A stretch of 37,974 nucleotides of DNA, taken from IMG/VR virus record IMGVR_UViG_3300035666_000075, positions 1 through 37,974 of that record. One strand, 5' to 3'. The notes under the pieces are model-generated. The model ran no database searches and had not been told where the DNA came from. It saw nothing but the letters and a program-made list of their open reading frames with translations. The stretch is from a virus. Both the position numbers and the translations under genes were made by a program. Shown here piece by piece: positions 17,321 to 37,974 of this stretch (position 1 is the stretch's first letter; every line of letters begins with the position of its first letter).

Positions 17321-17626
17321 ATGCAATCCGACCCCATTGAGTCCGACCAGTTAAGAGCCGAGAGGCTTTTGATTGAGCTATGCCCAGATAATTCTGAGCT
17401 TCGCAAAATCACGAAGGCTGGACGCTCACAGGAGCGGATCAAAATGCTTCGGCAAGTCATTGAAAGGCTCTTGCTCAACGCCATCCCAACGGCGGTGATC
17501 GCAAAGGCTCTCAAGATGGAACAGCCCGTGATTCAATACCACGCCCGATGGCTGGAAAAGCAGGGCAAAATCATCAGGCCAAGCAAACACAGCCATTGGA
17601 TTTGGGCAAAGGGAACTGATGAATGA
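17321..17626 (+). CDS. Winged-helix/HTH protein (101 aa)
   Basis: The product is helical with an HTH near residues 45-75 (LLLNAIPTAVIAKALKMEQPVIQYHARWLEKQG) followed by a short wing (KIIRPSKHSHWIW). This resembles small phage regulators. It sits directly before the cytosine methyltransferase, and two later starts overlap its stop: one in the dcm frame (ATG 17619) and one in another frame (ATG 17623, ATGA). It may regulate the methyltransferase operon. Confidence 0.55.
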   Translation: MQSDPIESDQLRAERLLIELCPDNSELRKITKAGRSQERIKMLRQVIERLLLNAIPTAVIAKALKMEQPVIQYHARWLEKQGKIIRPSKHSHWIWAKGTDE

Positions 17627-18479
17627 GCAACCAACCCACCTCGACTTGTTCAGCGGTATCGGAGGATTTGCTCTTGCCGCTGGATGGGCTGGATTTGAAA
17701 CCGTTGGATTCTGCGACAACGAACCTTACGCCCAAGCCGTCCTCAAAAAGCATTGGCCTAATGTCCCAATCCACGGAGACATCAAAACGCTCGATGGCAC
17801 GGCATATCGAGGAGTCACTCTTCTGTCAGGAGGATTTCCCTGCCAGCCGTTCAGTAATGCCGGGAAGCGGAGAGGCAAGGACGATGACCGCTATCTCTGG
17901 CCGCAAATGCTCCGAGTCATACAGGAGGCAAGGCCAACTTGGATTGTTGGTGAGAATGTTGTTGGAATCATCGGCTTGGCACTCGAACAAGTGTGTTCTG
18001 ATTTGGAAGCGTCTGGATACGATGTCGAGCCGATCATTATTCCAGCTTGCGGTGTCGATGCCCCGCACAGAAGGGACAGGGTATGGATTGTGGCAAACAC
18101 CAAGCGTGGAAGATGCGGGGAGAACTGGGAGCAAAGAGGGATGGCTGAAATACAAAAACAACGGGCAAACAAGTCAGTGCAGACTTCGGAATATGGTGCA
18201 GATGTGGCCGACCCCCAAAGCCAACAAGGTTCATCCAATGATAACAGACAAGAACAGAGAGAAGCTAGCCGCCCGGAACAAAGCCAATTTAGAGGAAGTG
18301 ATTGCGGGGAATTGCAACGGAGCAACTGGACAACTGAACCCAGCGTGGGTCGAGTGGCTAATGGGATACCCTATGGGATGGACAGAATTAAAGGACTCGG
18401 AAATGCCATCGTCCCGCAAGTCGCCTACCAAATCATCAAAGGCATTAAAGAAGTGATGGAGCAAGCCAATGAGAACTGA
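17619..18479 (+). CDS. DNA (cytosine-5) methyltransferase
   Basis: This 286-residue protein has C5-methyltransferase motifs in order: I DLFSGIGGF (9-17), IV GGFPCQPFS with catalytic Cys75, VI GENV (111-114), VIII APHRRDRVWIVA (148-159) and X GLGNAIVPQVA (259-269). The target-recognition region (about 160-245) is short and unusually polar, rich in Q, E, R, S and N. It probably methylates cytosines in a short site and protects phage DNA from restriction; no cognate nuclease is nearby. Its coding region also holds a long ORF in the +1 frame (17623-18456). Confidence 0.92.
   Translation: MNEQPTHLDLFSGIGGFALAAGWAGFETVGFCDNEPYAQAVLKKHWPNVPIHGDIKTLDGTAYRGVTLLSGGFPCQPFSNAGKRRGKDDDRYLWPQMLRVIQEARPTWIVGENVVGIIGLALEQVCSDLEASGYDVEPIIIPACGVDAPHRRDRVWIVANTKRGRCGENWEQRGMAEIQKQRANKSVQTSEYGADVADPQSQQGSSNDNRQEQREASRPEQSQFRGSDCGELQRSNWTTEPSVGRVANGIPYGMDRIKGLGNAIVPQVAYQIIKGIKEVMEQANEN
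17623..18456 (+). CDS. Overprinted ORF in +1 frame of the methyltransferase (277 aa)
   Basis: This ORF lies almost wholly inside the methyltransferase gene in the next frame. Its ATG overlaps the previous stop by ATGA, the usual start arrangement in this genome, and sits four bases after the methyltransferase ATG. The product contains DFPASRSVMPGSGEAR, SGRKCSESYRRQG, a SLFQLAVSMPRTEG segment, MWPTPKA and GQLNPAWVEWLMGYPMGWTEL. From memory these match a conserved family of phage and bacterial proteins of unknown function (DFPAS...WVEWLMGFP..GWT). Conserved nucleotides under the methyltransferase could explain part of this, but not the protein-like second half. Possible function unknown. Confidence 0.55.
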   Translation: MSNQPTSTCSAVSEDLLLPLDGLDLKPLDSATTNLTPKPSSKSIGLMSQSTETSKRSMARHIEESLFCQEDFPASRSVMPGSGEARTMTAISGRKCSESYRRQGQLGLLVRMLLESSAWHSNKCVLIWKRLDTMSSRSLFQLAVSMPRTEGTGYGLWQTPSVEDAGRTGSKEGWLKYKNNGQTSQCRLRNMVQMWPTPKANKVHPMITDKNREKLAARNKANLEEVIAGNCNGATGQLNPAWVEWLMGYPMGWTELKDSEMPSSRKSPTKSSKALKK

Positions 18480-20076: not shown

Positions 20077-21318
20077 ATGAAATACCCTTGCCTTATCACA
20101 AAAAAAATCAGCGAGCTCCAGCCAGCTTCATACAACCCAAGAAAAATTTCTTCCGATGCCCTTGGGAGGCTCACGAAAAGTTTGAGCGAACTTGGGAATC
20201 TTCAGCCGATCACTTGGAACGCTAAAACCGGGAACATTGTTGGAGGCCATCAAAGGCTAAAGTGCTATTCAGCACTTCAAAAAGAGGAAGTTGAAGTTTG
20301 GGCTGTTTGGCTAGATGAGGCTCAAGAAAAAGCGGCCAACATTGCCCTAAACAAATTAAGCGGAGAATTTGATTTACCAGCCCTCAAAGACATTCTTGAA
20401 GAAATTGATACAGGAGAAATCGACCTAGATATTACAGGCTTCGGGGCGGACGAACTTGCCGACCTTATGGAGCAAACCAAGCCAGAAGTCGAAGAGGACG
20501 AAGTACCGGAAGTTCCAGTCGATGCGATTACCAAGCCGGGTGACTTGTGGCTACTTGGTGAACATAGGGTGCTTTGCGGGGACGCAACAATCGAGGCAAA
20601 TGTATCTGGGCTAATGAATGGGGAAAGGGCGGATATGGTTTTCACCGATCCGCCCTATAATACTGGAATGACCGCACAAACGCAAAGCGGGGGAAATCCG
20701 AATACCCTTTGGAAAGGCAACGGCAAAAAAACAATGACTCAACCTTGGTTGAGTCATATGTTTAATGATTCATTTACAGACGAACAATGGCAGAACCTTT
20801 TAGCCTCATTTTGCAAACATTATTTCAATATATTAAAAGATGATTCCGTTGCTTATATTTGCTTGGATTGGAGAAGAAACCACGAGCTTATTCCGCATAT
20901 AAAACAATACTTTAAGTTAAGTAATATAATTGTTTGGGACAAAATGGTTCACGGTTTGGGTTCTGATTATAAATACACATATGAGCTTATAAACATATGC
21001 AAAAAAGGAAATCCAAAACTAGAGACGCACCAAGGCGAAAGAGAGTATAGCGATGTTTGGCACATACAAAGAAAGATGGGGCGAGACGAAGATCACGCCA
21101 CAAAAAAACCAGTCGAACTTACATCGAGAAGTATTCGGCACGGGTCTAGCAAAAATAATATAATATCGGATTTTTTTCTAGGCTCTGGCACAACCCTAAT
21201 CGCCGCCGAGCAACTAGGACGCAAGTGTTACGGAATGGAAATCAGCCCCAACTACTGCGATGTAATTGTGAAGCGATGGGAAAACCTTACTGGCAAAAAG
21301 GCAACGCTTTCCAAATGA
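20077..21318 (+). CDS. ParB-like / N6-adenine or N4-cytosine DNA methyltransferase
   Basis: Residues 1-130 form a ParB/Srx-like nuclease-fold domain with GGHQR (56-60) and many helices. The methyltransferase part has motif IV DPPY (191-194) before motif I DFFLGSGTT (365-373), the beta-class order, methylating exocyclic amino groups. DPPY fits either adenine N6 or cytosine N4. Such ParB-MTase fusions are common in phages. The middle of the gene (about 20740-21180, target-recognition region) is much richer in A+T than the ends, and a perfect inverted repeat sits at its left edge, which suggests a swapped recognition segment. Ribosome site TTAAGGAA precedes the ATG. Confidence 0.88.
   Translation: MKYPCLITKKISELQPASYNPRKISSDALGRLTKSLSELGNLQPITWNAKTGNIVGGHQRLKCYSALQKEEVEVWAVWLDEAQEKAANIALNKLSGEFDLPALKDILEEIDTGEIDLDITGFGADELADLMEQTKPEVEEDEVPEVPVDAITKPGDLWLLGEHRVLCGDATIEANVSGLMNGERADMVFTDPPYNTGMTAQTQSGGNPNTLWKGNGKKTMTQPWLSHMFNDSFTDEQWQNLLASFCKHYFNILKDDSVAYICLDWRRNHELIPHIKQYFKLSNIIVWDKMVHGLGSDYKYTYELINICKKGNPKLETHQGEREYSDVWHIQRKMGRDEDHATKKPVELTSRSIRHGSSKNNIISDFFLGSGTTLIAAEQLGRKCYGMEISPNYCDVIVKRWENLTGKKATLSK
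20734..20757. repeat. Perfect inverted repeat inside the methyltransferase gene
   Basis: ATGACTCAACC (20734-20744) is followed after TT by its exact reverse complement GGTTGAGTCAT (20747-20757). It lies in the coding frame near the edge of the AT-rich segment of the methyltransferase. Arms of 11 bases with no mismatch are unlikely by chance. Confidence 0.85.
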
Positions 21319-24101: not shown

Positions 24102-24338
24102 ATGGCACAGGGTTCTTTTGTTGGTTTGCCTGTTGCCACCCTAACTTCTCTGCGGGACAAATATGTTTCTTGTCTCGAGGCGATTGCGGTGGCCGGAGTT
24201 TCCTATTCTATTGGGGGGCGATCCTTTAGCCGAGCCAATCTTACCGAAGTTCGCAATACGCTTGAAGAACTTACCTATGCCATTAAGCTTGCCGATGGAA
24301 CAAGGACGCTGACCACCTACGCCAAGTTTGGCCCATGA
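24102..24338 (+). CDS. Head-tail joining protein, gpW-like
   Basis: A 78-residue protein between the large terminase and the portal, exactly where lambda W lies. The pattern of two helices flanking a small beta-hairpin (SLRDKYVSCLEAIAVAG, SYSIGGRSFSRANL, EVRNTLEELTYAIKL) agrees with gpW. It would join the head after packaging. The start has no ribosome-binding site; TTGACA lies thirteen bases upstream. The stop overlaps the portal start (ATGA). Confidence 0.75.
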   Translation: MAQGSFVGLPVATLTSLRDKYVSCLEAIAVAGVSYSIGGRSFSRANLTEVRNTLEELTYAIKLADGTRTLTTYAKFGP

Positions 24339-27301
24339 AAAAGACCGAATTGAATTTGATTGATAAGGCGGTTGCCTTCATCAATCCCCAGAAGGCTGTT
24401 GAGCGTCTTATTGCCAGAAAGAAGCTGACCAAGTTTGAATACGATGCGGTAAAGTACACACGGGAACGCAGGGGGCCGAGCTCTCTTTCCGGGGCTGAAG
24501 ATTATCGCTCGAACTATGATCGGGTAGAACTGATGAAGAGGGCGCGGGACTTGGCCGAGAATGTCGGCCTAGTTCGCTCGCTCCTCCTTAAATTTGCTGG
24601 TCATGTGGCAGGGTCAATCAGCTATCAAGCAAGGACTCTGAACCCGCAAATCAATTCAGACATCGAGGCATATTGGGCGGAATGGTGGGATAAATGCGAC
24701 ATCACAGGACGGCACACAGGCTCAACCCTTATGCAAGTTGCCGTGATGTCCATGTTAAGGGATGGCGACTTTCTTTTCCTTTTGGCAAGGGACAACGACA
24801 ACAACCTAAAACTTCAAGGCATCGAGGCTGATCGGTTGGGCGATCCTTACAGAACCTACACAAGCCTTGAGCTAATTGGCGGCATTCATATTGACCGCAA
24901 CACTGGCGCACCTACCGCCTACGATGTGTTCAATCGTAGCATTGGGGATTATTACACCTACCAAGCCACTATTTCCGCAAGCCAAGCCTTCCACCTTTTC
25001 GACCCGCTTCGCATTGACCAATATCGCGGAATCTCGGCCTTTCACACCGCCATCAATGATGCAACAGACATTCACGAACTGACCGGGTTTGAGAAGATGA
25101 GCGCGAAGGTCGCCAGCACCCAGAGCGCAATCGTGAAGCGCAACAACAACAATGCTTCCGACCTTTCCACCCTTTCAAATGATGAGGATTTCAATGGGAA
25201 CCAAATCAAGCTTGAATCCATTGAGTCTGGTAAAATTTCCTACCTTGAGCCAGGAGAGGATATTGTTTTCCCCAACGGCCCAAGCCGTCCCTCTGGTGCT
25301 TTCATGGAGTTTCATAAGGTTCTGATGCGGAACATCTGCCTTGGGCTTGGCATCCCATATTCATTTGCGGTTGATCCATCTCAAATGTCCGGCCCAACTG
25401 CTCGCCTAGAAATGCAACAGGCTGGGCGCACCTTCCGCCGGTACCAAAATCTTTTGAACGATAAGGTTCTTCGGCCAGTTAAAAACATTGTCCTTGCCGA
25501 TGCGGTTGCCCGTGGGCTTATCAGCGGGAGCGAGGGAAGCAAGACGACCAAGGGCATCTTCAACTTTGGAGCAAATGTCTCCATTGATTTAGGCCGGGAA
25601 TCTGCCTCCGCCATCGCAGAATTTAAAACAGGCTTGCGGACGGCTTCTGATATTTATGCAGAGCGCGGCCTAGATTTTGAAAGCAGTTTAAGGCAAAAGG
25701 CACAGGAAGCGGCCTTAATCAAAAGCCTTGCAAATGAATACGATATTCCCGCCGTGGCAATCTCCGACATAGTTGAAAGCCTTGTCTATGCCCAACAGGC
25801 GGCGCAGAGGGCGGGACAATCCCAAGAGGGCGCAGATGCCCAGACCCAAGTTGTATCGGATATTTCCCTCAACGGAGCGCAAGTGGCCAGCCTTATCAAC
25901 ATCATCAATGCGGTGGCCGCTGGTGCGCTCACAAGGGATGGAGCAATTTCTGTTATTACTGCCGCCTTCCCGACAATTTCAGAGGAGCAAGCAAGGTCAA
26001 TTATGGCTGGGGCAAAAGAGGGCGAAATTATCCCAACCACGAAAGAGGAAAGAATTGCCACAGCAAACCAGCCCCAAGAGGTTCAAGCAGAATCCGTAGA
26101 GGATAAAAAAAAAGAACTATTTGAAAAGCTAGACGCTGAAGATGTGAAAATGCTCATCGCCGGGATGATGGGCGGCATTGAGTTGGGCAAGTATGACGGG
26201 ATTGATTTCACGCCCCCAGAAGGAGCAAGGGAAGCCGCAAAGAGGGCTTTGGATGTAAGGGAAACCAAGCCAGCCAGCCAGAGGGGGATGACACCCGTAG
26301 GCATCGCTAGGGCGAGGGACTTGATTAACGGGGTAAAGTTCTCGCCCGATACCGTCCGCAGAATGAAGGCATTTTTTGATCGCCATGAAGTTGATAAAAA
26401 GGGGGCGACTTGGGATGAGCAAGGCAAGGGATGGCAAGCATGGAATGGCTGGGGTGGAGACGCTGGTTATGCGTGGGCAAGGAAAGTGGTTGGACAGATG
26501 GAGGCTAGGGACAAGAAAGAACTGGCAGAACCAGCCTCTTGCCCAATCGCAACCCAAGACATCAAAACCAATCTAGCCAATAGGCAGACAGCCGTGGACG
26601 ATGCGAATTACGGCCCAGCCAACCCTAATGAGCCTAATGAGGATTATTGGAAGGCAAAGGCAGATGAATTTCAAGGCGACATTGAAACGGCAAAGAAGAT
26701 GCTTTGTGGTAATTGTGCGGCCTTCGACCAGAGGAGCAAAGTTCTTGGATGTATTAAGAAGGGCATCGGCGAGGATGCAAACGAAGTCGCTATTGGTGGC
26801 AATCTAGGTTACTGCGAGATTTTTGATTTTAAATGTGCGGCCAAAAGAACTTGTGACGCTTGGATTGTGGGTGGACCAATGACTGATGAGAAGGCAAAGG
26901 AACTAGCCCGACCCGGCCCCAAGTCTGCGGCACAAACTCCCGCACCGCCCAAGGAACGGATTAAGGGATCAAAAGAAAACCCCGAAGGCACAGCGGCCAC
27001 GCGGTCAAAGGCTGGGGATATTGAAATTTCAGAGGCCAACGAACAAGCCCTTAAAGACAAGATTGCCCAGTTCAAAAAGGATCACCCCAAGAAGAACGCC
27101 CCCAGCCTTGGGACTCTAAAGAAGGTATTCCGCAGGGGTGCTGGGGCTTATTCGACTAGCTTTAGGCCGACCATCACAGGGGGCCAGCCCAACAGCCGAA
27201 ACGCTTGGGCGATGGCTAGGGTGAACAAGTTTCTCAAGATGGCTGGCGGTGGAGAGGTCAAGGAATCCTACCGCAAAGCCGATGGCGACCTTTTGACATA
27301 A
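24335..27301 (+). CDS. Portal protein (lambda gpB family) with C-terminal multidomain extension
   Basis: The 988-residue protein starts with a portal of about 490 residues: DYRSNYDRVELMKRARDL, then MSMLRDGDFLF, DPLRIDQYRG, and GPSRPSGAFMEF followed by an ICLGLGIPYSF segment, as in lambda gpB-type portals. A helical stretch follows (about 510-560). Three added regions then occur: about 625-722, with RARDLINGVKFSPDTV and WGGDAGYAWARK; a cysteine-rich domain at about 760-850 (CGNCAAFD, LGYCEIFDFKCAAKRTCDAW), probably metal-binding; and a DUF5824-like end (FRRGAGAYSTSFRP, AMARVNKFL). In other phages these are usually separate or fused to other virion genes. Roughly double the usual portal length. 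Confidence 0.85.
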   Translation: MKKTELNLIDKAVAFINPQKAVERLIARKKLTKFEYDAVKYTRERRGPSSLSGAEDYRSNYDRVELMKRARDLAENVGLVRSLLLKFAGHVAGSISYQARTLNPQINSDIEAYWAEWWDKCDITGRHTGSTLMQVAVMSMLRDGDFLFLLARDNDNNLKLQGIEADRLGDPYRTYTSLELIGGIHIDRNTGAPTAYDVFNRSIGDYYTYQATISASQAFHLFDPLRIDQYRGISAFHTAINDATDIHELTGFEKMSAKVASTQSAIVKRNNNNASDLSTLSNDEDFNGNQIKLESIESGKISYLEPGEDIVFPNGPSRPSGAFMEFHKVLMRNICLGLGIPYSFAVDPSQMSGPTARLEMQQAGRTFRRYQNLLNDKVLRPVKNIVLADAVARGLISGSEGSKTTKGIFNFGANVSIDLGRESASAIAEFKTGLRTASDIYAERGLDFESSLRQKAQEAALIKSLANEYDIPAVAISDIVESLVYAQQAAQRAGQSQEGADAQTQVVSDISLNGAQVASLINIINAVAAGALTRDGAISVITAAFPTISEEQARSIMAGAKEGEIIPTTKEERIATANQPQEVQAESVEDKKKELFEKLDAEDVKMLIAGMMGGIELGKYDGIDFTPPEGAREAAKRALDVRETKPASQRGMTPVGIARARDLINGVKFSPDTVRRMKAFFDRHEVDKKGATWDEQGKGWQAWNGWGGDAGYAWARKVVGQMEARDKKELAEPASCPIATQDIKTNLANRQTAVDDANYGPANPNEPNEDYWKAKADEFQGDIETAKKMLCGNCAAFDQRSKVLGCIKKGIGEDANEVAIGGNLGYCEIFDFKCAAKRTCDAWIVGGPMTDEKAKELARPGPKSAAQTPAPPKERIKGSKENPEGTAATRSKAGDIEISEANEQALKDKIAQFKKDHPKKNAPSLGTLKKVFRRGAGAYSTSFRPTITGGQPNSRNAWAMARVNKFLKMAGGGEVKESYRKADGDLLT

Positions 27302-28420: not shown

Positions 28421-28783
28421 ATGAGCACCAATATTGACGGAAATTTTCGGACATTCAGCACCTCGTCCGCCATCTCGGCTTACCGCCTTGTTCAGCCCTC
28501 CACCGTGACGGCTGGCGGGGTTGATGTGGCCGTGACCGGGGCGACCAAGGCCATCGGAGCCACGATTGATGATGTGGCGGCCAATGGCTATGTGACCGTG
28601 AAGCTGTTCCACCCCACCTTCTTCGCAACCGTATCGGGCGTTGCGGCAGTCGGTGATGTTGTGAAATTTGATGCGGCTGGTCAAGTGACCACGCTGGCGG
28701 CCAATCTTGTGACCGCTGGCATCGCCCTTGAGGCGGCCACGGCGACTTCGGCGGTGATCGAGATTGCCGTTCCGATGTTCTAA
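28421..28783 (+). CDS. Head decoration protein
   Basis: The 120-residue protein lies just before the major capsid protein, where lambda D lies. It is rich in A, V, T and G and resembles DUF2190/gpD-type capsid-stabilising proteins: LVQPSTVTAGGVDVAV, KAIGATIDD, AAVGDVVKFDAAG and a GIALEAATA end. It should cap capsid trimers after expansion. Start has an AAGGA site six bases away from a slightly AT-rich leader. Confidence 0.75.
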   Translation: MSTNIDGNFRTFSTSSAISAYRLVQPSTVTAGGVDVAVTGATKAIGATIDDVAANGYVTVKLFHPTFFATVSGVAAVGDVVKFDAAGQVTTLAANLVTAGIALEAATATSAVIEIAVPMF

Positions 28784-28814: not shown

Positions 28815-29780
28815 ATGAGTTATATCTCTGGTGGCACAACGATTCGGGGAGACATCAATCAGGCTCTGGTTGAAGCCCCCAATGGCGACACTGGTCTGAT
28901 CGGGGCTGAAATCTTCCCCCTTCTGCCCGTCCCCGCCAAAAGCGGTCAGTACCTCAAGGTTCAGTTGGCACAGGCCGACCTCCTCAACAATGATTCCAAG
29001 GCTCGCGATATTGGCTCCGGTTACGCCCGTGCCATCCGCGCCTTCGGGACTGATACCTACGACACCGTTGAGTTCGGTCTTGAGGAATTGATTGATGATA
29101 GCTTCCGCGCTGATGCTGATCGTTTCTTCGATCTAGAAGCCTCCTCGGCTCGCTTCCTCCTCCGCCAAATCAAACTTGGCCACGAGAAGCGTGTGCAGGA
29201 CATTATCAATGCCAGCACGACCCCCTTCACCACTGCCGATCAGTCTGCCATCTCCGCTTATACCAATGCGAATCTGGCGAACATTGATGTGGCTGGCGAT
29301 GTGGCCAATGCCCGTACCGAACTGAACAAGCTCGGTTATGAGGCCAACACGGTCATCATGTCGGCCCCTGTGTTCGAGCGTATCCGCCGGACGACCAAGC
29401 TCCAGAATCAGTTCTTCGGGGTTATCTCCGACACGGGTTCCCGCTTGCTGTCCGAGGCTGAAATCGCGGCGGCTCTGGGAGTCCAAAGGGTTCTCGTTGG
29501 TCGCGCGGCGATCAACTCCGCTAACAAGAACAAAGCCTATTCTGGTGGGTTCGTGTTCTCCAACACCTTCATCACCGTTGCCAATGTGCAGAGCGGTCAG
29601 TTCACCGCTGGCGGTATCGGGCGCACCCTCGTTTGGTCGGCTGATGCCCCCGGAGGCTTCGTCTCCGAGAGCTATCGTGATGAGGCTCGCCGGAGCAATG
29701 TGCTTCGGGTTCGTATGAATACGGCTGAAAAGCTGATTGATGCGAATGCTGGCGTGCGTATCACCACCAGCTTCAACTAA
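28815..29780 (+). CDS. Major capsid protein
   Basis: The 321-residue product follows the decoration protein and precedes a strong terminator. It has an N-terminal arm (NQALVEAPNGDTGLIGAEIF), a helix-rich P-domain with EASSARFLLRQIKLGHEKRVQD, and a C-terminal beta-rich part with FTAGGIGRTLVW and GFVSESYRDEARRSNVLRVR, as in HK97-fold capsid proteins of lambda gpE type. No leader long enough for protease processing is obvious. Codon use is slightly more GC-rich than in neighbouring genes, as is common for highly expressed capsid genes. Confidence 0.85.
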   Translation: MSYISGGTTIRGDINQALVEAPNGDTGLIGAEIFPLLPVPAKSGQYLKVQLAQADLLNNDSKARDIGSGYARAIRAFGTDTYDTVEFGLEELIDDSFRADADRFFDLEASSARFLLRQIKLGHEKRVQDIINASTTPFTTADQSAISAYTNANLANIDVAGDVANARTELNKLGYEANTVIMSAPVFERIRRTTKLQNQFFGVISDTGSRLLSEAEIAAALGVQRVLVGRAAINSANKNKAYSGGFVFSNTFITVANVQSGQFTAGGIGRTLVWSADAPGGFVSESYRDEARRSNVLRVRMNTAEKLIDANAGVRITTSFN

Positions 29781-29802
29781 AGATTGGTTTGTGTGTTCCT
29801 CG

Positions 29803-29845
29803 AAAGGGGGGTTAGGGTAAAAGCCCTAGCCCCCTTTTCTTTTCT
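29803..29845 (+). terminator. Intrinsic terminator after the capsid gene
   Basis: AAAGGGGGG with TTAGGG pairs with CCCTA and GCCCCCTTT across a short loop, and TTTTCTTTTCT follows. The long G-C stem and T-rich end make this a convincing rho-independent terminator, placed at the end of the head operon. Confidence 0.85.
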
Positions 29846-29878
29846 ATGAATTGACATAAATCCCACCTTAAATCCTAT

Positions 29879-31540
29879 ATGCGAAATCCTCTGTCCATTT
29901 ACCTTATTTGTGGCTCTAATGAAGCCGAGTATCTCCAAAGAGTTCTTAAAAGTTTCAAGCCCGTTGCGAAGGAGTTTGTTGTTTGCCTTGCTGGCGGGTC
30001 AGCTTCGACAGCCGAGGAGGAGCGGATTGCCTTGGATGCTGGGGCTAAAGTCGTTTATTACAAAAACAAAAGAACGGATTGGCCTCACATAGACGATTTT
30101 GCAACGGCCAGAAATACAGCCCTAGAGGCTTGTTCAGAGAAGTGGGCGATGTGGGTGGATGCTGATGATGAGATGCAACCAGGGGCAGAGGCAATTATAG
30201 ACGAAGCTATTACACAAGCGGAGCAGAGGGAAGCCCAACTCATAGCGTTCCGCTACAATGTTTCCAATGCCGGACTGATACCCCTTCGTGAGATGGTTTC
30301 CCTAAAGGGCAAGTGCAGATGGAAGAATCGGGTTCACGAAATGTTGGTAGCAGAGGATCAGACAAAGATATTTGGGATTGATAGGGTGGTTCGGGTTCAC
30401 AACCCAAAAGGCTATAAAAAGACATCTGCCGACAGAAACTTCACCATCCTAAAGGATGTTTTGGAGCCAGCCCCAACCTCGCTTTATTACACCCAGCAAG
30501 AATACTTTTTAACTACAAATTGGGCCGAGTGCCTAAAATATGGAAAGCTGGCAATTCAATTCCCAGAGCTAGAGGATACACTTCGGTATGATGTGCTTTG
30601 CAATATGGGAAGATGCGCCCCGACTACCGAGGAAAAATTAAGATATTTAGGCGAGGCGATTGCCTGCCAGCCAGACCGCAGGGAAGCCCATTATTGGCTC
30701 GCGGTTGAGTATTCAGCCCACGGAAAATGGAACAAGGTTTGGGGGGCGGCTCGTTCTGCCATGAGCCTTCCAAGGCCAACACAACACTACTGGAACCTTG
30801 TTGAAGCAATTTATTCTTGGCAAGCGATGGATTTGTACGAAACAGCTTGTGCCTGTATTGGCAAGAAAGAAGAGGCCGAAAAGATTAGGAAGGCAAGACC
30901 AGCCCCTAAAATTAGCGTGGTTCACGCAACCAAAGGAAGGCCACAAATCGCGTGGCAAAGAAGGCATCAATGGCTAACGCTTGCCCAAAAGCCCCTAGAG
31001 GTGGAATGGCTTTTTGTAGTGGATCACGATGACCCCCAAGACTACACGCCCCACCAAGCCATCAGAGCCAACCCCGGCGGCATCATTAACGCTTGGAACT
31101 ATGGGGCAAAACAGGCCAAGGGAGATATTATTATTCAAATGAGCGATGATTGGAGCCCATGCCGCCATTGGGATGCCCTAATTTCAAACGCTATTGGGGC
31201 TACAAATGAGCCCAAGGTCTTGGCAGTATCTGATGGGCTACGAACCGACAAACTCCTTTGTATGGCGATTTTAACGCAAAAGAGGCTAGAACAGCAGGGT
31301 GGGTTTATGTTTGCCCCAGAGTACCAAGAGAGTGACGGCATCTATTCCGACAACGAATTTACAGAAAGAGCTTATAGTGATGGGGTTGTGATTGAAGCGA
31401 AGGAGATTCAGTTCAAGCATGAAAACCCCCTCTTTGCAGGCGGGAAGCCAGACGATCTAATAAAGAATCACAACAAGCCAGAGTTCTATGAAAAGGGTAA
31501 ATCCATTTATGAAAAAAGAAAAAGCAATTCTTGGAATTAA
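29879..31540 (+). CDS. Bidomain glycosyltransferase (GT2-type) with TPR-like middle
   Basis: The 553-residue protein has two glycosyltransferase-like halves. The N-terminal one begins LSIYLICGSNEAEYL and has the DxD-type VDADDEM (Asp94-Asp97). Helical repeats (about 250-330) look TPR-like. The second half begins ISVVHATKGRP (about 344) and has VVDHDDP (about 380-386) and MSDDW (about 421-425). This is the first gene of a cassette placed after the capsid terminator. It likely transfers sugars to a virion or host-surface acceptor. It starts within a leader that contains TTGACA and AAATCC. Confidence 0.75.
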   Translation: MRNPLSIYLICGSNEAEYLQRVLKSFKPVAKEFVVCLAGGSASTAEEERIALDAGAKVVYYKNKRTDWPHIDDFATARNTALEACSEKWAMWVDADDEMQPGAEAIIDEAITQAEQREAQLIAFRYNVSNAGLIPLREMVSLKGKCRWKNRVHEMLVAEDQTKIFGIDRVVRVHNPKGYKKTSADRNFTILKDVLEPAPTSLYYTQQEYFLTTNWAECLKYGKLAIQFPELEDTLRYDVLCNMGRCAPTTEEKLRYLGEAIACQPDRREAHYWLAVEYSAHGKWNKVWGAARSAMSLPRPTQHYWNLVEAIYSWQAMDLYETACACIGKKEEAEKIRKARPAPKISVVHATKGRPQIAWQRRHQWLTLAQKPLEVEWLFVVDHDDPQDYTPHQAIRANPGGIINAWNYGAKQAKGDIIIQMSDDWSPCRHWDALISNAIGATNEPKVLAVSDGLRTDKLLCMAILTQKRLEQQGGFMFAPEYQESDGIYSDNEFTERAYSDGVVIEAKEIQFKHENPLFAGGKPDDLIKNHNKPEFYEKGKSIYEKRKSNSWN

Positions 31541-31766
31541 AAAAGCCAAGCCCTCCGACCCAAAAGACCTTGGCGTGATTAAGCTTGGAAAGGCACGGCC
31601 CGATAAAACAAAGTATGTTTTAATGGATTTTGAATATGATGAAAAGGCAGGAAAAGAGCTTTATGGAATCGGAATGGAAATGCTTGCCAAGGACAAGGAA
31701 GCAGTCATCAATTATGTGATTGTTGAGGCCATTAAAAATTACATAAAACCAAAATGCAAGAAATAA
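31509..31766 (+). CDS. Small hypothetical protein (85 aa)
   Basis: It starts within the 3' end of the glycosyltransferase in another frame (ATG at 31488 or 31509; 31509 is preferred because of its shorter overlap and the AAATCC just before it). The product is basic with a conserved-looking GVIKLGKARPDKTKYVLMDF stretch and a C-terminal helix. Ends inside the next gene. No known family. Confidence 0.5.
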   Translation: MKKEKAILGIKKAKPSDPKDLGVIKLGKARPDKTKYVLMDFEYDEKAGKELYGIGMEMLAKDKEAVINYVIVEAIKNYIKPKCKK

Positions 31767-32353
31767 CCATTCAAGACCCATTCGGCCAAGCCCTAGCAAA
31801 ATACAGCGAGGGGCTTTCTCTTGGGGTTGAAATAGGTGGCGGAACCGGGGATGGCTCAACCCAATGTATCAAAACAAGGGAGCTATTCAGCTTCGAAATT
31901 CATCCAGACCGCATAGGCCGACATAAGTATAACCTAGATTCAAGGCAAGGAGGATTGGCGGTTAATTGGCTTTCAAGCAATCCGATGATGTGGATGAGCC
32001 TAGAGGCCGTGGAAGATTTTTATAGGACAACCCAAACCAAGCTAAATCAATATCCTCTCGATCAAATTATTGAATGGCACAGGGAAGATTTTAGGGTTGC
32101 GGCAAAATATACTTGGGGGCATCCAACCATTAAGGATGAGGCCGACTTTCTTTTATTGGATGGCGGGGCTTTTTCTGGAAGGGCTGACTTTATGGTTTGG
32201 TTTCCAAAGCTAAAAGAGGGAGGAATCATCGCCCTAGACGACACAAACGACATTAAGAATTACGGGAATTATCAATGGCTTAAAACATCGGGGCATCCTG
32301 TTTTATGGGAGGAACCATCTTGGAGGAATGGGTGCGCCATTTTCAAGAAATGA
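31754..32353 (+). CDS. Class I SAM-dependent methyltransferase-like protein
   Basis: Motif I is clear in SLGVEIGGGTGDGST (about 21-35), with an acidic residue at the end of strand 2 (FSFEIHPDRI), an LLLDGGAFSGRADF motif-IV-like part and IIALDDTND afterwards. The 199-residue protein is typical of small-molecule or sugar methyltransferases near glycosyltransferases. Substrate is unknown. Starts 12 bases inside the previous gene and ends in ATGA overlap with the next. Confidence 0.65.
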   Translation: MQEITIQDPFGQALAKYSEGLSLGVEIGGGTGDGSTQCIKTRELFSFEIHPDRIGRHKYNLDSRQGGLAVNWLSSNPMMWMSLEAVEDFYRTTQTKLNQYPLDQIIEWHREDFRVAAKYTWGHPTIKDEADFLLLDGGAFSGRADFMVWFPKLKEGGIIALDDTNDIKNYGNYQWLKTSGHPVLWEEPSWRNGCAIFKK

Positions 32354-32931
32354 TTATCGTAAATATCGGGGCAAATGACGGAATGGATGATTGCCGTGAT
32401 TTTGTCTTTACAAATAGGGACAAAATCAGCCGGGTGTTGTTAGTCGAGCCATCCGAGGAAGCCCTTGCAAAATGCAGGGAAAATTATTCCGATATTCCAA
32501 ATGCAGAGTTTTACAACTTAGCCATTGTTCCGGCCGATTCAAATTTTGCAATTCTTTACAGCCCAAAGGATGAACCCGAAAGCCACCACTCCTCCTTAAT
32601 CCCCGACCATACATTATTCCATGGATATAGAAAAATTGAGGGCATTATAAGAAAGGCAATGGGGATTGGCGATTTTTTGATAAAAAATAATGTCGATATT
32701 TGTGACAGGCTTTATATTGATACTGAGGGAATGGATTTTTATATTCTTTCGGCCATAGATTTTTCAAAACATAAGATCGGGTTTATTCGATACGAAAGCT
32801 ATCATTTTGATGGGATTACCAACAAGGGGCAAAATCACAAGGCGTTTGTTCAGAGGCTTGCTGGCCTTGGCTATTCAATTACGAAAGACGGACAATGGAA
32901 CGAAATAGCAGAAAAATCATGGAGCATATAA
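32350..32931 (+). CDS. FkbM-family methyltransferase
   Basis: Start is the ATG overlapping the previous stop (ATGA). The 193-residue protein shows FkbM features: IIVNIGANDGMDDCRDF (motif I), VLLVEPSEEALAKCREN, and LYIDTEGMDFYIL, with Asp/Glu residues for SAM and metal handling. FkbM enzymes are O-methyltransferases often acting on glycans. Together with neighbours it suggests a sugar-modifying pathway. It overlaps the next gene by 13 bases. Confidence 0.75.
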   Translation: MIIVNIGANDGMDDCRDFVFTNRDKISRVLLVEPSEEALAKCRENYSDIPNAEFYNLAIVPADSNFAILYSPKDEPESHHSSLIPDHTLFHGYRKIEGIIRKAMGIGDFLIKNNVDICDRLYIDTEGMDFYILSAIDFSKHKIGFIRYESYHFDGITNKGQNHKAFVQRLAGLGYSITKDGQWNEIAEKSWSI

Positions 32932-33455
32932 ACGCAGATTTTGGGGAGCAATGGTTCACCTATCCGGGCATTTATCGGCGTATGGCAAAGAACTGCCGAC
33001 CCAACGGAATCCTTGTTGAGCTTGGGGCATGGAAGGGAAGAAGTTCCGCATTCCTAATTGTGGAGGCAAAAAACAAAAGCCCGGACATTCAGGTTCATAT
33101 TGTGGACACTTGGCTTGGATCAGGCGAGCATACCCTTGGAATGACGGACGGACTTTATGAAAAGTTTCTTGAAAACCTTTCTCCGCTTAAAGGACAATAC
33201 CAAGCCCACAGGATGACAACAGATGAGGCCGCAAGCCTTTTCCAAGACGGCTCCCTAGACGGGGTTTTCATAGATGCCGACCATACTTATGAAGCAGTTA
33301 AAATGGACATTCAAAACTGGATGCCGAAAGTAAGAAGCGGCGGAATCCTTGCCGGGCATGACTATATTGAAACATGGCCGGGAGTCATTGAGGCAGTCAA
33401 TGAAAGCCTAAAAGATTTTTCCGTCACAGAACAATGCTGGGTAAAACAATGCTAA
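32919..33455 (+). CDS. Class I methyltransferase (Methyltransf_24-like)
   Basis: Motif I is in ILVELGAWKGRSSAFL, followed by IQVHIVDTWLGSGEH, DGVFIDADHTYEAVKMDI and GGILAGHDYIETWPGV, the arrangement of Methyltransf_24 (CmcI/O-methyltransferase-like) enzymes. The ATG at 32919 is chosen as it gives the smaller overlap; an in-frame ATG at 32895 is also possible, and neither has a good ribosome site. It is the third methyltransferase in a row. Confidence 0.65.
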   Translation: MEHINADFGEQWFTYPGIYRRMAKNCRPNGILVELGAWKGRSSAFLIVEAKNKSPDIQVHIVDTWLGSGEHTLGMTDGLYEKFLENLSPLKGQYQAHRMTTDEAASLFQDGSLDGVFIDADHTYEAVKMDIQNWMPKVRSGGILAGHDYIETWPGVIEAVNESLKDFSVTEQCWVKQC

Positions 33456-34216
33456 CCATTTTCACAATCGTATTGAATGGCGAGCCATTCATAAGCAAAA
33501 AGCTGGAAACCTACCAAAAGCTGACTATTCCTTGGCAATGGAGGATTGTCGAGGGAGTCAGCAATCCCAGAAATTGCACTCGCTGGTGCAGGGAAGTTCC
33601 GAGCAAATGGCACAAGGATTTTGTCTCAATAGACGCCACGCACGAATATCTTAAAAACCTAAAACATCCAAAGGTATCGTTCCAATACCAAAACAAGCCT
33701 TTCGATGGAAAGATTGAGATGATACGAAGGGCATTGGAAGGGGTGGATTGCGGGGTTGTGATGGAGCAGGACGCTGATGAGTTTTGGACAGAAAAACAAA
33801 TGGAGGATGTTTATAGGCTTTTGATTGATCGAACGCCCGGAACCGCCGCTCAATTCTTTTGCAATTATCACATAGGGAAAAAGGTTGTCGTTTCGCGCTC
33901 CGGGCTTGGGTGTTATCCTTACGAATGGTATCGAGCATGGAAGTGGGGCGAGGGCATTGAGTTTACCAGCCACGAACCACCCATCCTGAATCACCAGCCG
34001 AGCAGAATCCCAAGGGGAGTCACCGAGGAGATGGGGCTTGTTTTTGACCACTTCGCCTATTCTGTTCCAGCGCAAGTAGAGTTTAAGGAAGATTTTTATG
34101 GCTATGCGGAGCTTCTGAAATCTTGGGAGAAACTACAAAAAACTCACGGGCCTGTAAGGCTGAATCGCTATTTTACTCATGTTCAAGACAGAAGCGTGGT
34201 GGATGATGCAACCTAA
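33449..34216 (+). CDS. Glycosyltransferase-like protein
   Basis: The protein begins MLTIFTIVLNGEPFI, as in GT2-type enzymes, and has an acidic triad in VVMEQDADEFW (Asp108-Asp110), the likely nucleotide-sugar/metal site. The rest is aromatic-rich (CYPYEWYRAWKWGEG). An earlier in-frame ATG at 33434 exists; 33449 has the shorter overlap with the previous gene (7 bases). It lies after three methyltransferases. Target unknown. Confidence 0.65.
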   Translation: MLTIFTIVLNGEPFISKKLETYQKLTIPWQWRIVEGVSNPRNCTRWCREVPSKWHKDFVSIDATHEYLKNLKHPKVSFQYQNKPFDGKIEMIRRALEGVDCGVVMEQDADEFWTEKQMEDVYRLLIDRTPGTAAQFFCNYHIGKKVVVSRSGLGCYPYEWYRAWKWGEGIEFTSHEPPILNHQPSRIPRGVTEEMGLVFDHFAYSVPAQVEFKEDFYGYAELLKSWEKLQKTHGPVRLNRYFTHVQDRSVVDDAT

Positions 34217-34889
34217 AATCATAAAATATTCCCAAAGGCTAGGCGACATTTTAAGATGCCTGCCTGCCTGTAAGTTTTTATCCGACAAGGGGCATAGAGT
34301 TTTGTTTGATTGCCTTGAGATTTACCACGGCATTTTTGATATGGTTTCCTATGCCCAACCACTAGGAGCAACCCCTTTTGATGCTGATATTCTTGAGCTA
34401 GAAATATGGCCCAATAAATATGTTGATTATAGAAAAAGCAGAAAATCTTGGGGAGAGTTTGTCTATTCCCATAATGACATAAAGGGAGCAGACAGGGAAA
34501 ACATTGTTATAGATAGGCTTTGTAGTGAAAGAGCGATTGGGCTACCAGAAAAATATCACCTGATTGCCCCATTCGGGGTTTCGCAAAATACCTACCATAA
34601 TCCGCTTAAAATCATCCAAGAAGCCGCAAGGGAACTAGGCAAAGATAATGTGATTGTTTTATGTCCGGGGGATGTTCGGATTGAGGGCATTGCCACCTAT
34701 ACCGCCCCAAGCGTTGAGCAGATGGCAAAGGCGGTCAGGGATGCAGACCAATTCTGGGCAATCAATTCAGCCCCAATCATCTTGGCCTCTTCGGTTCGGA
34801 GGGGAAAGGAAAGCAAGTTTTGGGGGCAAAAGGGGGAGTTTGAATCAGACAATGTTCCTTGGTTTGAGGGGCTTGTAAGAATGGATTGA
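34206..34889 (+). CDS. GT-B-type glycosyltransferase-like protein (GT9-like)
   Basis: The product of about 227 residues starts QPKIIKYSQRLGDILRCLPA, which is like the N-terminal Rossmann of GT9 (heptosyltransferase) proteins, and has a second half with HLIAPFGVSQNTYHNP, DNVIVLCPGDVRI and FWAINSAPIILASSVRRGK, as in a GT-B donor-binding domain. It is shorter than heptosyltransferases (about 330 residues). The stop overlaps TTGACA, which precedes the next gene. Confidence 0.55.
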   Translation: MQPKIIKYSQRLGDILRCLPACKFLSDKGHRVLFDCLEIYHGIFDMVSYAQPLGATPFDADILELEIWPNKYVDYRKSRKSWGEFVYSHNDIKGADRENIVIDRLCSERAIGLPEKYHLIAPFGVSQNTYHNPLKIIQEAARELGKDNVIVLCPGDVRIEGIATYTAPSVEQMAKAVRDADQFWAINSAPIILASSVRRGKESKFWGQKGEFESDNVPWFEGLVRMD

Positions 34890-34906
34890 CACTAGGGTTG
34901 GTTTTG

Positions 34907-35224
34907 ATGGGCGGGGCTATTTCCACTTCTTATTTTGGGTCTGACCTTCACTACATGATTAATGACTTGTGGGTGAGCGTGACCGGGCTTGCATCTAACC
35001 CTGTTTCTGCAATAGCCACCGACCTCGGGACTTCGGCTGATTTGGATGTTGGAGGAGAAGTTTTCAGGCTTACTAAATCCCTTGTGGTTTGTGCGTCGGC
35101 TGTTTCAACCGTTACCATCGGCAATCTTTGCACCTTAGAAAACAACGAATTTATGGTTGCCCAATTCTCAACCTCAACGGACGGCCTTTCCTATACCCTA
35201 GACTTGGCTGATCCCACAACCTAA
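34907..35224 (+). CDS. Head-tail connector / structural protein (105 aa)
   Basis: The ATG at 34907 is chosen; an in-frame TTG at 34886 would overlap the previous gene. The product is beta-rich (AISTSYFGSDLHYMIND, then DVGGEVFRLTKSLVV), with strands near VSTVTIGNLCTLE. It is the first gene after the sugar-transfer cassette and before the tail-terminator-like pair, the place of lambda FI/FII. Function by position only. The stop overlaps the next ATG (TAATG). Confidence 0.5.
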   Translation: MGGAISTSYFGSDLHYMINDLWVSVTGLASNPVSAIATDLGTSADLDVGGEVFRLTKSLVVCASAVSTVTIGNLCTLENNEFMVAQFSTSTDGLSYTLDLADPTT

Positions 35225-35640
35225 TGGCCTCTATTGAGAGAGAGGTTGAGAACGCCTTAATCTCAGCCATCAATTCTGTAACTGGGCTTTCGTACTACAC
35301 AAGCGAAAGACCCACGGCCAGAACCCTTCCCTTTGTCTCGGCAAGGGCTTCCATCACAAATGAGCAGTTGGGAACATTTACCGGGGTTTTTGGGCTAACT
35401 GCCAACCTTTCCTACAACCAAAGAGCCGACTCCATAACCCGCCAAGCCTTCGATGCCAAGTTTCAAGAGATTGTAGGCAAGTTCTATCAGAATCCCAATC
35501 TTGCAGTCGTCTCAACTACGGCATCCAATGTGACTATTTACAATGCCAAGATGACAAGCGAAAGCCCATCCATCATGGCAAGGAACAGGACTTGGGCTAA
35601 AGAGATAACCCTTGATGTGATTGCGAGCGCAAAAAAATGA
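35224..35640 (+). CDS. Tail terminator/completion-like protein, copy A
   Basis: The 138-residue protein has an N-terminal helix (EREVENALISAINSVTGL), central strands (TLPFVSARASI, LGTFTGVFGLTANLSYN) and a RTWAKEITLDVIAS end. It lies between a connector candidate and the fibrous genes, where siphophages keep tail terminator (Z/U-like) genes. A second, clearly related gene follows. The stop overlaps that gene (ATGA). Family inferred from position and shape. Confidence 0.55.
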   Translation: MASIEREVENALISAINSVTGLSYYTSERPTARTLPFVSARASITNEQLGTFTGVFGLTANLSYNQRADSITRQAFDAKFQEIVGKFYQNPNLAVVSTTASNVTIYNAKMTSESPSIMARNRTWAKEITLDVIASAKK

Positions 35641-36140
35641 GCCAATCCATCCAATATCAGATTGAGGATGGGATTGCCGCCCTCTTAACAGGCATCTCCG
35701 GCCTTAATGTCTATACAACAAACAGAATTGGCAGAAGGCTTTTCCCTTATGTAACCATTCAAGCCTTAATCAGTTCGCAAGTGCTAGGAAATTATAGCGG
35801 GGTTTACGATCTTTCTGTTGCAGTCAATTACAGCGACACGGCGGTTAAGGTAAGCCAAGAAGCCTTTGACCAAGAATATTGCGAGATATTTGAGGCGTTC
35901 TACTCAGAAACCCCCACCCTTCGGGCAAAGATAGATGCCCAAATTTTACCACCCGCAGTCATTTATATGGCTCAAATAACAGGCCAAAGCCCAACGATAA
36001 GGGCAAGCTCTAGGGCTTGGCAGAGGGGGCTAACGATGCGGATTATGGCAAGCCCGGTTCAGTCGCCTGAAGCCGTTGCCTATATCGCCGCACTTCAATT
36101 CAACGATCATCGCAATTCCCAATATATCGGAGCAATTTAA
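35637..36140 (+). CDS. Tail terminator/completion-like protein, copy B
   Basis: The 167-residue protein is a paralogue of the previous gene: both have a GISGLNVYT/SVTGLSYYT type start, a P(F/Y)V(S/T) strand, LG.(F/Y).GV(F/Y).L, an FD.......FY helix and a SP(S/T)I.A..R.W end. Copy B is longer at the C-terminus (VQSPEAVAYIAALQF). Two different terminator-like proteins in tandem may form separate rings, or one may have diverged. Confidence 0.6.
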   Translation: MSQSIQYQIEDGIAALLTGISGLNVYTTNRIGRRLFPYVTIQALISSQVLGNYSGVYDLSVAVNYSDTAVKVSQEAFDQEYCEIFEAFYSETPTLRAKIDAQILPPAVIYMAQITGQSPTIRASSRAWQRGLTMRIMASPVQSPEAVAYIAALQFNDHRNSQYIGAI

Positions 36141-36157: not shown

Positions 36158-37609
36158 ATGGCACTTCCAGTTTTAGACGGAAATCAGTCAGCAACGACCC
36201 TTTCTTCAGTAGTAACAGGAGGGGAGCATATTGTTGCTCATACGGTTGTTAGCCTTGGATCAACCGCAATCTCAAACATCACAAGCGCAGTTAGCGGAAG
36301 CGTTGTTTCCATCTCCAACTTCCCGGCCAGCCAGACCATTGCTGGCACGGTCACGGCGAATTTAATAGGAAGAGACGGAACAGGGTTGGGATTTGATCGC
36401 AGAATTGCTTGTGATTCTTCTGGCAACACGATTGTAAATATTCATGCAGGCGATGGTTCTGGGCCAATTTCCAATGTAAATGGCCTTCTTGTTCGCGGCA
36501 CGGTCACGGCGAATGTTCCTTTTGCTTCAACAACCGCAACTTTTCCAAATCAAATTGTTGCCATTGGCTATCGAGATGGGTTGGTTGGTAACACAATTAA
36601 GGAAGTTAATAATGATAATGGCGAGCTTCCTGTAAAAATACAAAAAATTGATGCTGGCGGGGCTCTAAACTCACAGTTTGCCAGTTGGATTGTTGATAGC
36701 GGAGGTGATGTTCCCATCTCCGGCACGGTCACAGCAAATGTTTTTGGCCAGCATCAGACAGATGAAGACCAAAGACCAATTCCAGTTGATTCATGGCAAA
36801 TAGCCAGAGCCGATACTACTGTTGATTTGATTGTTCCAGTACAAATCACAAACGATTCTGGGACGCTTAACGCCTCGAACCCCCTCCCCATCTCCGGCAC
36901 GGTCACGGCGAATGTGGCTGGAAATCTAAACAGCACACTTGAATATGACGGAAACACTTTTTTCGTTAAAGTGGCCGGAAGATCTGCTGGAGGAAAAACA
37001 GACTATCCAATCAATATATCAGGCACGGTCACGGTCGGCAATTCCGTCACCATCGGCTCGTTGCCATCAATTTCTGGAACCGTCACAGCCAACATCAATG
37101 GCACGGTTCCTGTCAGCATTTCATCTGTTACCATAGGAAATTCAGTAACCATTGGCTCCTTTGCAACAAGCGTAACAGCAAGGCTAATTAACCCCGCTGG
37201 AACCGCTGTAACTTACGCAGAGGTTGGGACGGCTGGCAATCCATCCATTGATGTTCTTTCTGTGCAGGGCGTTTCTGGTGGAACTAATTTGCCCATTGCT
37301 GGATCGGTAACAATTTCTGGTGTTCCCAGTGGCGCACTTACAACTCGTTTTGGCTCTGTGGTTACGGCCAATACTGCCTTATTGACGGCCGCTGTAACCA
37401 ATTCTGCAAGGCGGTATTTGCTCATTCAAAATGTCACAACCTCATCGAATGTTATCACGGTTGGGGTTGGATTTACTCCAACAACTACTCAAGGCATTCA
37501 GCTTACGGCTGGGGCTGGAATCACATTTGAATCTAGCTACATACCTACAGGGGCTGTTTATATTCTTTCTAGTGTAACTGCATCCACATTCACAATTCTT
37601 GAAGCGTGA
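36158..37609 (+). CDS. Repetitive fibrous protein (ISGTVTAN repeats)
   Basis: The 483-residue product repeats ISGTVTAN-type units about every 30-60 residues (at about residues 66, 117, 192, 250 and 292, and a variant near 310), with SVTIGNSVTIG elements between. This suggests a beta-helix or fibrous stalk; similar units occur in phage tail or capsid-fibre proteins. The C-terminal part (NAVTNSARRYLLIQNVTTSS, then GVGFTPTT) looks like a tip domain. It begins with AAGGAG upstream and ends in a GTGA overlap with the second LamG gene. An adhesin role is inferred. Confidence 0.65.
   Translation: MALPVLDGNQSATTLSSVVTGGEHIVAHTVVSLGSTAISNITSAVSGSVVSISNFPASQTIAGTVTANLIGRDGTGLGFDRRIACDSSGNTIVNIHAGDGSGPISNVNGLLVRGTVTANVPFASTTATFPNQIVAIGYRDGLVGNTIKEVNNDNGELPVKIQKIDAGGALNSQFASWIVDSGGDVPISGTVTANVFGQHQTDEDQRPIPVDSWQIARADTTVDLIVPVQITNDSGTLNASNPLPISGTVTANVAGNLNSTLEYDGNTFFVKVAGRSAGGKTDYPINISGTVTVGNSVTIGSLPSISGTVTANINGTVPVSISSVTIGNSVTIGSFATSVTARLINPAGTAVTYAEVGTAGNPSIDVLSVQGVSGGTNLPIAGSVTISGVPSGALTTRFGSVVTANTALLTAAVTNSARRYLLIQNVTTSSNVITVGVGFTPTTTQGIQLTAGAGITFESSYIPTGAVYILSSVTASTFTILEA
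36344..37039 (+). repeat. 18-bp coding repeats (GGCACGGTCACGGCGAAT)
   Basis: The same 18-base string occurs at 36344, 36497 and 36896, with near copies at 36722 and 37022. All are in the same frame and encode the GTVTAN part of the fibrous protein. The spacing is irregular (about 126-225 bases). Confidence 0.85.
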
Positions 37610-37974
37610 GCATCTTAATCAAGCCAGCCTACGACTCTGACGCAAGCAGTTACTTTACAACCGCTGGCGTGACGGAGGTTGCGGCCAAGCAACAAATCAG
37701 TCGTTTTGTCACAGGGATCAAAGACCTCGGCCTGTGGAGCAGTATGGTCTGCTGGCCGCTTCGCTCCTCCCAGAATGCGGGGACGGGAACTACGGCATAT
37801 TCGCTGGGGGGATTGGGGACTTACAATGGGACGCTGACGAATGGGCCGACTTGGGGAACTGATGGGGTGGATCTTGATGGCATTAATGACTTTATTGCAA
37901 CATCTATAGGAAATATATACTCCTCTGGCATATCAATTTTGATTGGATTTAATTCAGACAATATCGAAATAATT
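37606..37974 (+). CDS. LamG-like tail/receptor-binding protein (3' partial)
   Basis: The GTG overlaps the previous stop (GTGA). The first 123 residues are visible: VSILIKPAYDSD, then an N-terminal region nearly the same as in the gene at position 1, and the start of a jelly-roll (LDGINDF, YSSGISILIGF). It runs off the window end. It is a paralogue of the gene at 1-747 and carries the second 107-bp perfect repeat. Probably part of a tandem set of interchangeable tip domains. Confidence 0.75.
   Translation, partial: MSILIKPAYDSDASSYFTTAGVTEVAAKQQISRFVTGIKDLGLWSSMVCWPLRSSQNAGTGTTAYSLGGLGTYNGTLTNGPTWGTDGVDLDGINDFIATSIGNIYSSGISILIGFNSDNIEII
37744..37850 (+). repeat. 107-bp perfect repeat, copy 2 (LamG gene)
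   Basis: Identical to 106-212, in the same coding frame, at the other end of the window. See the first copy. Confidence 0.95.

Follow-up and report, generated by a model that had tools for sequence, protein, structure and literature searches.

What do six transferase-type genes do in the midst of the virion genes of a phage? The question is raised by a virus record of IMG/VR (IMGVR_UViG_3300035666_000075), 37,974 bases long and classed as linear, which was analysed at full length and is called the window below. Its terminase is of the GpA type and its portal of the lambda family (Pfam), and from the sample identifiers and context we take the lineage to be a freshwater one. Between the major capsid gene (28815-29780) and a set of small neck-type genes starting at 34886 lie six enzyme genes, A to F. 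A first-pass annotation, made by reading the sequence, had placed these genes between the capsid and connector genes, and the list of open reading frames (ORFs) agrees: all six are present, intact and in the order given. However, the inventory was one gene short, as it lacked a 92-residue ORF between A and B, a2, which overlaps the end of the former and the start of the latter.

The features of the cassette are listed here, with counts referring to the 52 distinct intervals among 74 loci that span the capsid gene to G, the gene after the cassette. For C, D, E and F the starts at 32350, 32919, 33449 and 34203 are probably the right ones, rather than those of the longest ORFs, because these ATGs overlap the preceding stop codon by a few bases.

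29879-31540, + strand: A, a GT2-TPR-GT2 protein with GT2 at residues of about 1-178, a TPR part at 180-340 and a second GT2 at 344-515; 52 of 52 intervals.
31488-31766, + strand: a2, a small conserved ORF with the internal ATG at 31509 as an alternative start; called in 29 of 52.
31754-32353, + strand: B, a core methyltransferase-like protein (Methyltransf_24 at 4.3e-5, below cut-off), related to D (profile E-value 5.4e-6); 48 of 52.
32350-33448, + strand: plug-in slot from the stop codon of B to the start codon of E, where near-identical phages carry different genes between the same borders.
32350-32931 (longest ORF from 32305), + strand: C, an FkbM methyltransferase (Methyltransf_21, 3.8e-12); 5 of 52.
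32919-33455 (longest ORF from 32895), + strand: D, a methyltransferase (Methyltransf_24, 1.4e-19); 12 of 52.
33449-34216 (longest ORF from 33434), + strand: E, a GT2-like transferase (GT2 at 0.065, acidic motif, marginal profile match to A); 49 of 52.
34203-34889 (longest ORF from 34179), + strand: F, a transferase with a predicted GT9-type (GT-B) fold (model pLDDT 89.8; TibC, WaaC and WaaF matches); 44 of 52.

We consider it likely that these genes form a cassette whose enzymes glycosylate and methylate a virion protein in the cytoplasm, with differences between phages that resemble serotypes. Directly established are the genes, their order, their conservation, the predicted folds of A and F and the exact exchange of the slot; from these we infer the acceptor, the location, the steps, the sugars and the benefit. 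This reading is the best supported one, mainly because A is built like a protein glycosyltransferase, because membrane parts are lacking and because the linkage of the cassette to virion genes is a fixed one.

Protein A (553 residues) had been described as a two-domain GT2-like protein. Two GT2 domains are indeed found, and a TPR part has to be added between them, as indicated by Pfam (GT2 at 5.1e-10), by phrog families (phrog_13126 over residues 7-335, phrog_14945 over 344-518) and by an AlphaFold2 model in which a helical TPR part links the two GT2 domains (pLDDT 75.8). When a profile of 14 relatives was compared with PDB sequences, the best match for the front part was GmaR (5.4e-10), followed by SunS (2.2e-9) and ThuS (7msk, 7.5e-7), and designed TPR proteins matched over residues of about 198-320. 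With the model, Foldseek ranks SunS and ThuS first, from 2e-15, and VIA also has these two on top, giving ThuS a Z of 18.1 (295 residues, root-mean-square deviation, rmsd, 9.7) and SunS 17.4 (263 residues, rmsd 5.5); the large rmsd values are consistent with an uncertain arrangement of the domains. The NCBIfam SunS model (TIGR04195) matches at 7.6e-6, and acidic catalytic-type motifs (VDADD or VDCDD; QMSDDW) are kept across 14 aligned relatives. The fold is common in viruses, as BFVD holds many viral GT2-like proteins that match it, giant viruses among them.

Judged by profiles and model, the front part of A thus appears closest to enzymes that glycosylate proteins and peptides. GmaR, which acts on Listeria flagellin, and SunS/ThuS share with A the combination of GT2 and a TPR-like helical part, while the second GT2 domain is a feature of A. 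Since GmaR is the best match, the target could also be a host protein, flagellin or another surface protein, whose modification by a GmaR-like enzyme would aid infection or block later phages. In line with this, the flagellin glycosyltransferase FlmG and enzymes of its type recognise flagellin through a TPR domain, according to the accessible part of the report (PMC7591256). However, as described below, the cassette is firmly tied to the virion genes and undergoes recombination together with the neck block, which a host target would not need, and we hold this explanation to be quite improbable.

The label of three methyltransferases including an FkbM holds well for C and D and weakly for B, which reaches 24.8 bits against a Methyltransf_24 cut-off of 26.3. 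There is weak evidence that E is GT2-like, as the first-pass annotation had called it: the Pfam value, a conserved D-x-D-E motif and the marginal match to A. Profiles of E and of F against PDB sequences gave a single, meaningless match each.

For F (236 residues) a single-sequence search found no Pfam family, GT9 included, at E-values up to 1. Its predicted fold, from a confident model, is of the GT9 type, which bears out the earlier GT-B-like label. Foldseek puts TibC on top (3e-7), followed by WaaC (2e-6); in VIA the values are Z 15.4 for WaaF (221 residues, rmsd 3.3), 14.8 for WaaC and 13.2 for TibC, and subunits of the plant NDH-PSI supercomplex score 15.4, equal to WaaF. TibC is a heptosyltransferase that acts on an adhesin. 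The fold is common to F and the GT9 heptosyltransferases, but F is shorter than the TibC chains (371-390 residues). Homology searches were thus run for all six enzymes, and structure prediction for A and F gave the GT2-TPR-GT2 and GT9-type folds. Further, hydropathy shows no membrane segment in any cassette protein; the 19-residue maxima, 0.73 to 1.19, are below a membrane-like level, and therefore the cassette contains neither a flippase nor a membrane transferase.

Is the cassette an insertion, as had been proposed? Three scans of viral contigs with capsid proteins, made without regard to the cassette, gave 174 loci with a capsid identity to the window of about 64% and up; each scan kept its best 80 matches, two of them each detected 274 relatives, and some loci share a contig. 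Of the 174, 160 have A on the downstream side of the capsid gene. The other 14 loci end early, 12 of them less than 1 kb past the capsid gene and two at 1.0 and 1.7 kb, so that among the capsid-selected loci none long enough to show the cassette is without it. In the reverse test the capsid gene lies upstream in 78 of 80 loci selected by A; of the two exceptions one is cut at the start of A (L093) and one starts inside an insert made up of lectin-like genes (L114). This comparison of syntenic phages for presence or absence does not bear out the word "inserted", which we drop because every retrieved relative of sufficient length has the cassette; it belongs to the core of the lineage. That dozens of diverged contigs keep the gene order goes beyond chance. 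Among annotated phages the only capsid match is Arthrobacter phage Kovu (25%), with no annotated glycosyltransferase in the stretch examined. A host search in genome_contigs found neither a capsid relative nor a relative of A, and searches of the window found no tRNA and no match in Rfam.

The frame of the cassette is largely constant and its interior is modular. The 52 intervals show 18 different gene orders. At the place of F, a GT2-like gene (v11; Pfam GT2_4, below cut-off) stands in 7 of them. The slot between B and E holds v5 in 23 intervals, D in 12, C in 5, and rarer families besides; v5 is methyltransferase-like by reading only. Among the slot and variant genes Pfam identifies a GT7 galactosyltransferase type (v16), a GT47 (v24), a nucleotide-sugar transferase (v23), two Methyltransf_23 proteins (v17 and v25), a radical SAM protein with a B12 domain (v20) and an NAD epimerase (v28), and gives nothing for v5, v18 and v30 and a weak match only for v21. 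All slot genes that Pfam names are sugar or methyl enzymes. The proposal that the genes build and methylate a glycan is supported as a pathway by this, and the slots of relatives extend it by GT7, GT47, epimerase and radical SAM/B12 enzymes.

The slot is exchanged exactly at the stop and start codons in near-identical phages. Four loci (L005, L059, L007 and L139) are 98.0-98.8% identical in DNA to the window as far as base 32353, where the stop codon of B ends, and then carry v16 where the window has C and D. The match resumes from 33447, just 5' of the ATG of E at 33449, with an identity of 97.2% in L059, 95.2% in L139, 90.3% in L007 (a short end) and 84.9% in L005, there over a stretch reaching into the neck genes. 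Elsewhere the slot holds only a D-type gene (L136 and L140), v5 (L135) or v20 and v21 (L082), and C and D are retained in L009 and L137. On the left side, the stop codon of B overlaps the incoming start as ATGA in most of the loci compared and as GTGA in L083 and L010; the right border, as cut here, is off by one base in L135, L083 and L010.

Additional genes stand directly past the terminator, between the capsid gene and A, in many relatives. A protein of 95-109 residues is found there in 21 of 52 intervals, and lectin-like (Laminin_G_3) or glycine-rich proteins also occur. Examples are L032:10557-12968, L036, L046, L071, L114 and others, and one family of these genes (v10) resembles by eye an ORF at 37606-37974 of the window.

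The proposed course of events is as follows. During late expression, soluble A would use its TPR part to bind a virion protein and would place the first sugar on it; its second GT2, E and F would then lengthen the chain in the cytoplasm. B and the product or products of the slot, here C and D, would cap and diversify the glycan, with another methyltransferase, a galactosyltransferase or an epimerase doing so in relatives. The particles of near-identical phages would then differ in their surface glycan, much like serotypes.

Several observations weigh against a virion target. The model of A is of only moderate quality (pTM 0.52), and at 25 bits A stays far from the 350-bit cut-off of the SunS family TIGR04195. 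The lipopolysaccharide (LPS) heptosyltransferases WaaF and WaaC outscore TibC with F in VIA. The C-terminal part of A resembles the O-antigen-type fucosyltransferase WrtF (VIA Z 16.7, 182 residues, rmsd 3.5), and in Foldseek its front part also matches TarP and TarS, which are wall teichoic acid enzymes. Finally, the distances between versions of A correlate with those of the capsid protein at 0.32 only, far below the 0.72 of neck genes (see below).

The resemblances to WrtF, TarP/TarS and LPS heptosyltransferases would also suit the chief rival explanation, that LPS, capsule or wall glycans of the host are remodelled, so that later phages are excluded or progeny is kept off debris; the variable slot would then mirror host serotypes. 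Superinfection exclusion is among the roles proposed for glycosyltransferases of freshwater phages in the accessible text of PMC10202952. However, the cassette has no membrane protein, stands among virion genes in every retrieved relative and starts with an enzyme whose front part most resembles transferases that act on proteins and peptides. The first-pass annotation had left the choice between capsid or tail proteins and the host surface. A virion protein is favoured here, because A resembles protein and peptide glycosyltransferases and hydropathy gives no membrane segment, and a host-surface target appears unlikely.

A shield of glycosylated DNA against restriction has likewise been proposed for glycosyltransferases of freshwater actinophages, in the same accessible text (PMC10202952). 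Such a role is very improbable here: no base-hypermodification enzyme is found by Pfam among 20 other window proteins (smaller ORFs left out), the window has two DNA methylases of the ordinary kind (17619-18479 and 20077-21318), A resembles protein transferases, and a methyltransferase of the FkbM type does not fit. Known DNA-glucosylation systems include genes for the synthesis of the modified base.

If a virion protein is the target, which one is it? The neighbouring genes include several possible acceptors.

28421-28783, + strand: cement/decoration protein gene, possible acceptor (Phage_cement_2 at 5.7e-5, just under the curated cut-off; phrog_673 at 2e-9).
28815-29780, + strand: major capsid protein gene, possible acceptor (phrog_1005, 3.3e-32).
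34886-35224, + strand: G, a neck/attachment-like protein after the cassette (weak Phage_attach at 0.091; position).
35224-36140, + strand: H and I, two small related virion-type genes, possible acceptor block, whose variation A and F follow.

We calculated rank correlations of pairwise distances over 36 loci: the five main genes were present in 92 loci, all ten genes in 38 of these, and thinning left 36; the permutation p-values ignore shared ancestry. A correlates with F at 0.79, with G at 0.73 and with H and I at 0.72 each. The other values are 0.22 for A and B, 0.71 for B and E, 0.14 for B and H and 0.07 for the capsid protein and H. These values indicate that the head block and a block of A, F and neck genes recombine against each other, with B and E partly separate. 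As A tracks the neck genes better than the capsid protein, the adjoining capsid is not obviously the acceptor, and the weak correlation speaks against it as a coevolving partner. Inheritance of A to I as one block is a sufficient alternative that would explain much of the correlation with the neck, and we do not claim a neck protein as the acceptor because these genes are contiguous and possibly inherited together. However, B, which is itself part of this stretch, does not vary along with it, and linkage alone therefore cannot explain everything. We would hold only tentatively that particle glycosylation is fixed in a widespread uncultured lineage, with a two-headed A that starts and extends the glycan, slot swaps that create particle "serotypes", and an acceptor in the neck or tail rather than the capsid.

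Two further observations concern these genes. H and I (35224-35640 and 35637-36140) are paralogues, about 30% identical across relatives. Residues of about 570-850 of the portal (24335-27301) are variable, with unrelated sequence in L004 and L006 despite identical capsid proteins; the version in the window is cysteine-rich.

Upstream of A two short elements are found.

29802-29839, + strand: transcription terminator hairpin between capsid gene and cassette, with a 17-pair stem and a T-rich tail.
29851-29856, + strand: the word TTGACA, present in 64 of the 65 distinct gaps in which A directly follows the capsid gene (shuffles 2.6%).

The strong terminator reported earlier in front of the cassette is real. 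The 212 sequences examined, of which 128 are distinct, all have a hairpin of -8 kcal/mol or lower with a T-rich stretch after it downstream of the capsid gene, and the stems have diverged. This signal would permit the enzymes to be produced in smaller amounts than the capsid protein. A consensus terminator scan over the whole region found 10 against 9.6 expected, which is not above chance.

TTGACA also stands directly behind the hairpin in 51 of 67 distinct stretches of other loci. We rejected it as a sigma-70 -35 box: it lies about 19-28 bases from start codons, too near for an ordinary -35 box, and no matching -10 is seen by eye. In the window it precedes gene starts at 2463, 9714, 24083, 27293 and 29851 on the + strand, and occurs 8 times forward and never in reverse. 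In 37 relatives (714 kb) there are 228 forward and 15 reverse copies, and 94 of the forward ones fall in the 9% outside ORFs of at least 100 residues. Another word, GAAATCCT, is found at 2853, 3255, 12873, 12895, 17310 and 29883; in 20 long relatives it occurs 53 times forward against 5 in reverse, often just before start codons.

Most of what is known about the glycosylation of phage virions comes from a few mycobacteriophages, in which it is reported to shield the particles from antibodies (PMC12363180, in its accessible part). If our reading is true, an environmental lineage has glycosylation among its core traits, together with a variable slot, and selection other than by animal immunity would have to act. 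Near-identical phages with different slot contents offer natural pairs for testing the role of the decoration, and the GT2-TPR-GT fusion is a concrete starting enzyme for an assay.

How does the cassette compare with known systems? Serotype conversion cassettes of the gtrABC type have a membrane flippase and membrane-bound transferases, whereas the proteins of the window cassette have no membrane-like stretch. Titles and abstract beginnings of the literature gave no description of the cassette of this lineage; most subscription papers lie outside that coverage and absence from print is not claimed.

Closer to A, tblastn against annotated phages found few and distant relatives (6 records). Two unrelated Manatee Spring phages have, like the window, a GT2-TPR-GT fusion beside head genes and further glycosyltransferases, which supports a virion target, as does the first rank of TibC among the Foldseek matches of F. 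In ctKR88 (MW202524) a 761-residue GT2-TPR-GT1 protein starts about 580 bases behind the capsid gene, with one 165-residue gene between, and is followed by more glycosyltransferases and methyltransferases; a related contig (L234) has the same fusion. In ctf1B273 (MW202497) a 567-residue protein with GT2, TPR and GT4 matches is encoded between terminase and portal, and after it come a GroEL-type gene and one of the GT1 type. This chaperonin (L235:5640-7208, Cpn60_TCP1 at 1.6e-48) thus stands between two glycosyltransferase genes in the head block. The second domain is of the GT1 or GT4 kind in these phages and GT2 in A, and the capsid of ctKR88 belongs to phrog_1328, that of the window to phrog_1005.

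With A, B, E and F, tblastn against the phage collection, in which the presence of Corndog was not established, gave no mycobacteriophage match, and D matches only Mycobacterium phage Boilgate (27.5%) in that group. In Corndog, a cluster O mycobacteriophage, the stretch from portal to protease contains an O-methyltransferase and three transferases (gp35-gp38), for which its authors proposed a role in capsid modification (PMC4351075, as far as its text was accessible). The glycosyltransferases of this group are gp36-gp38 in Corndog and gp110 in Che8. Later work, cited in two papers, reports glycosylated proteins in Che8, Corndog and Myrna (PMC12363180; PMC12619734), and glycosylation of capsid and tail tube is reported for the Corndog/Che8 group (PMC12363180). 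The window shares with Corndog and Che8 the presence of methyltransferase and glycosyltransferase genes inside the virion operon, a parallel that also speaks for a virion target, but has them behind the capsid gene. The cassette is Corndog-like in idea; what is new here is that the enzymes are different, that they are core in the lineage and that they include an exchangeable slot.

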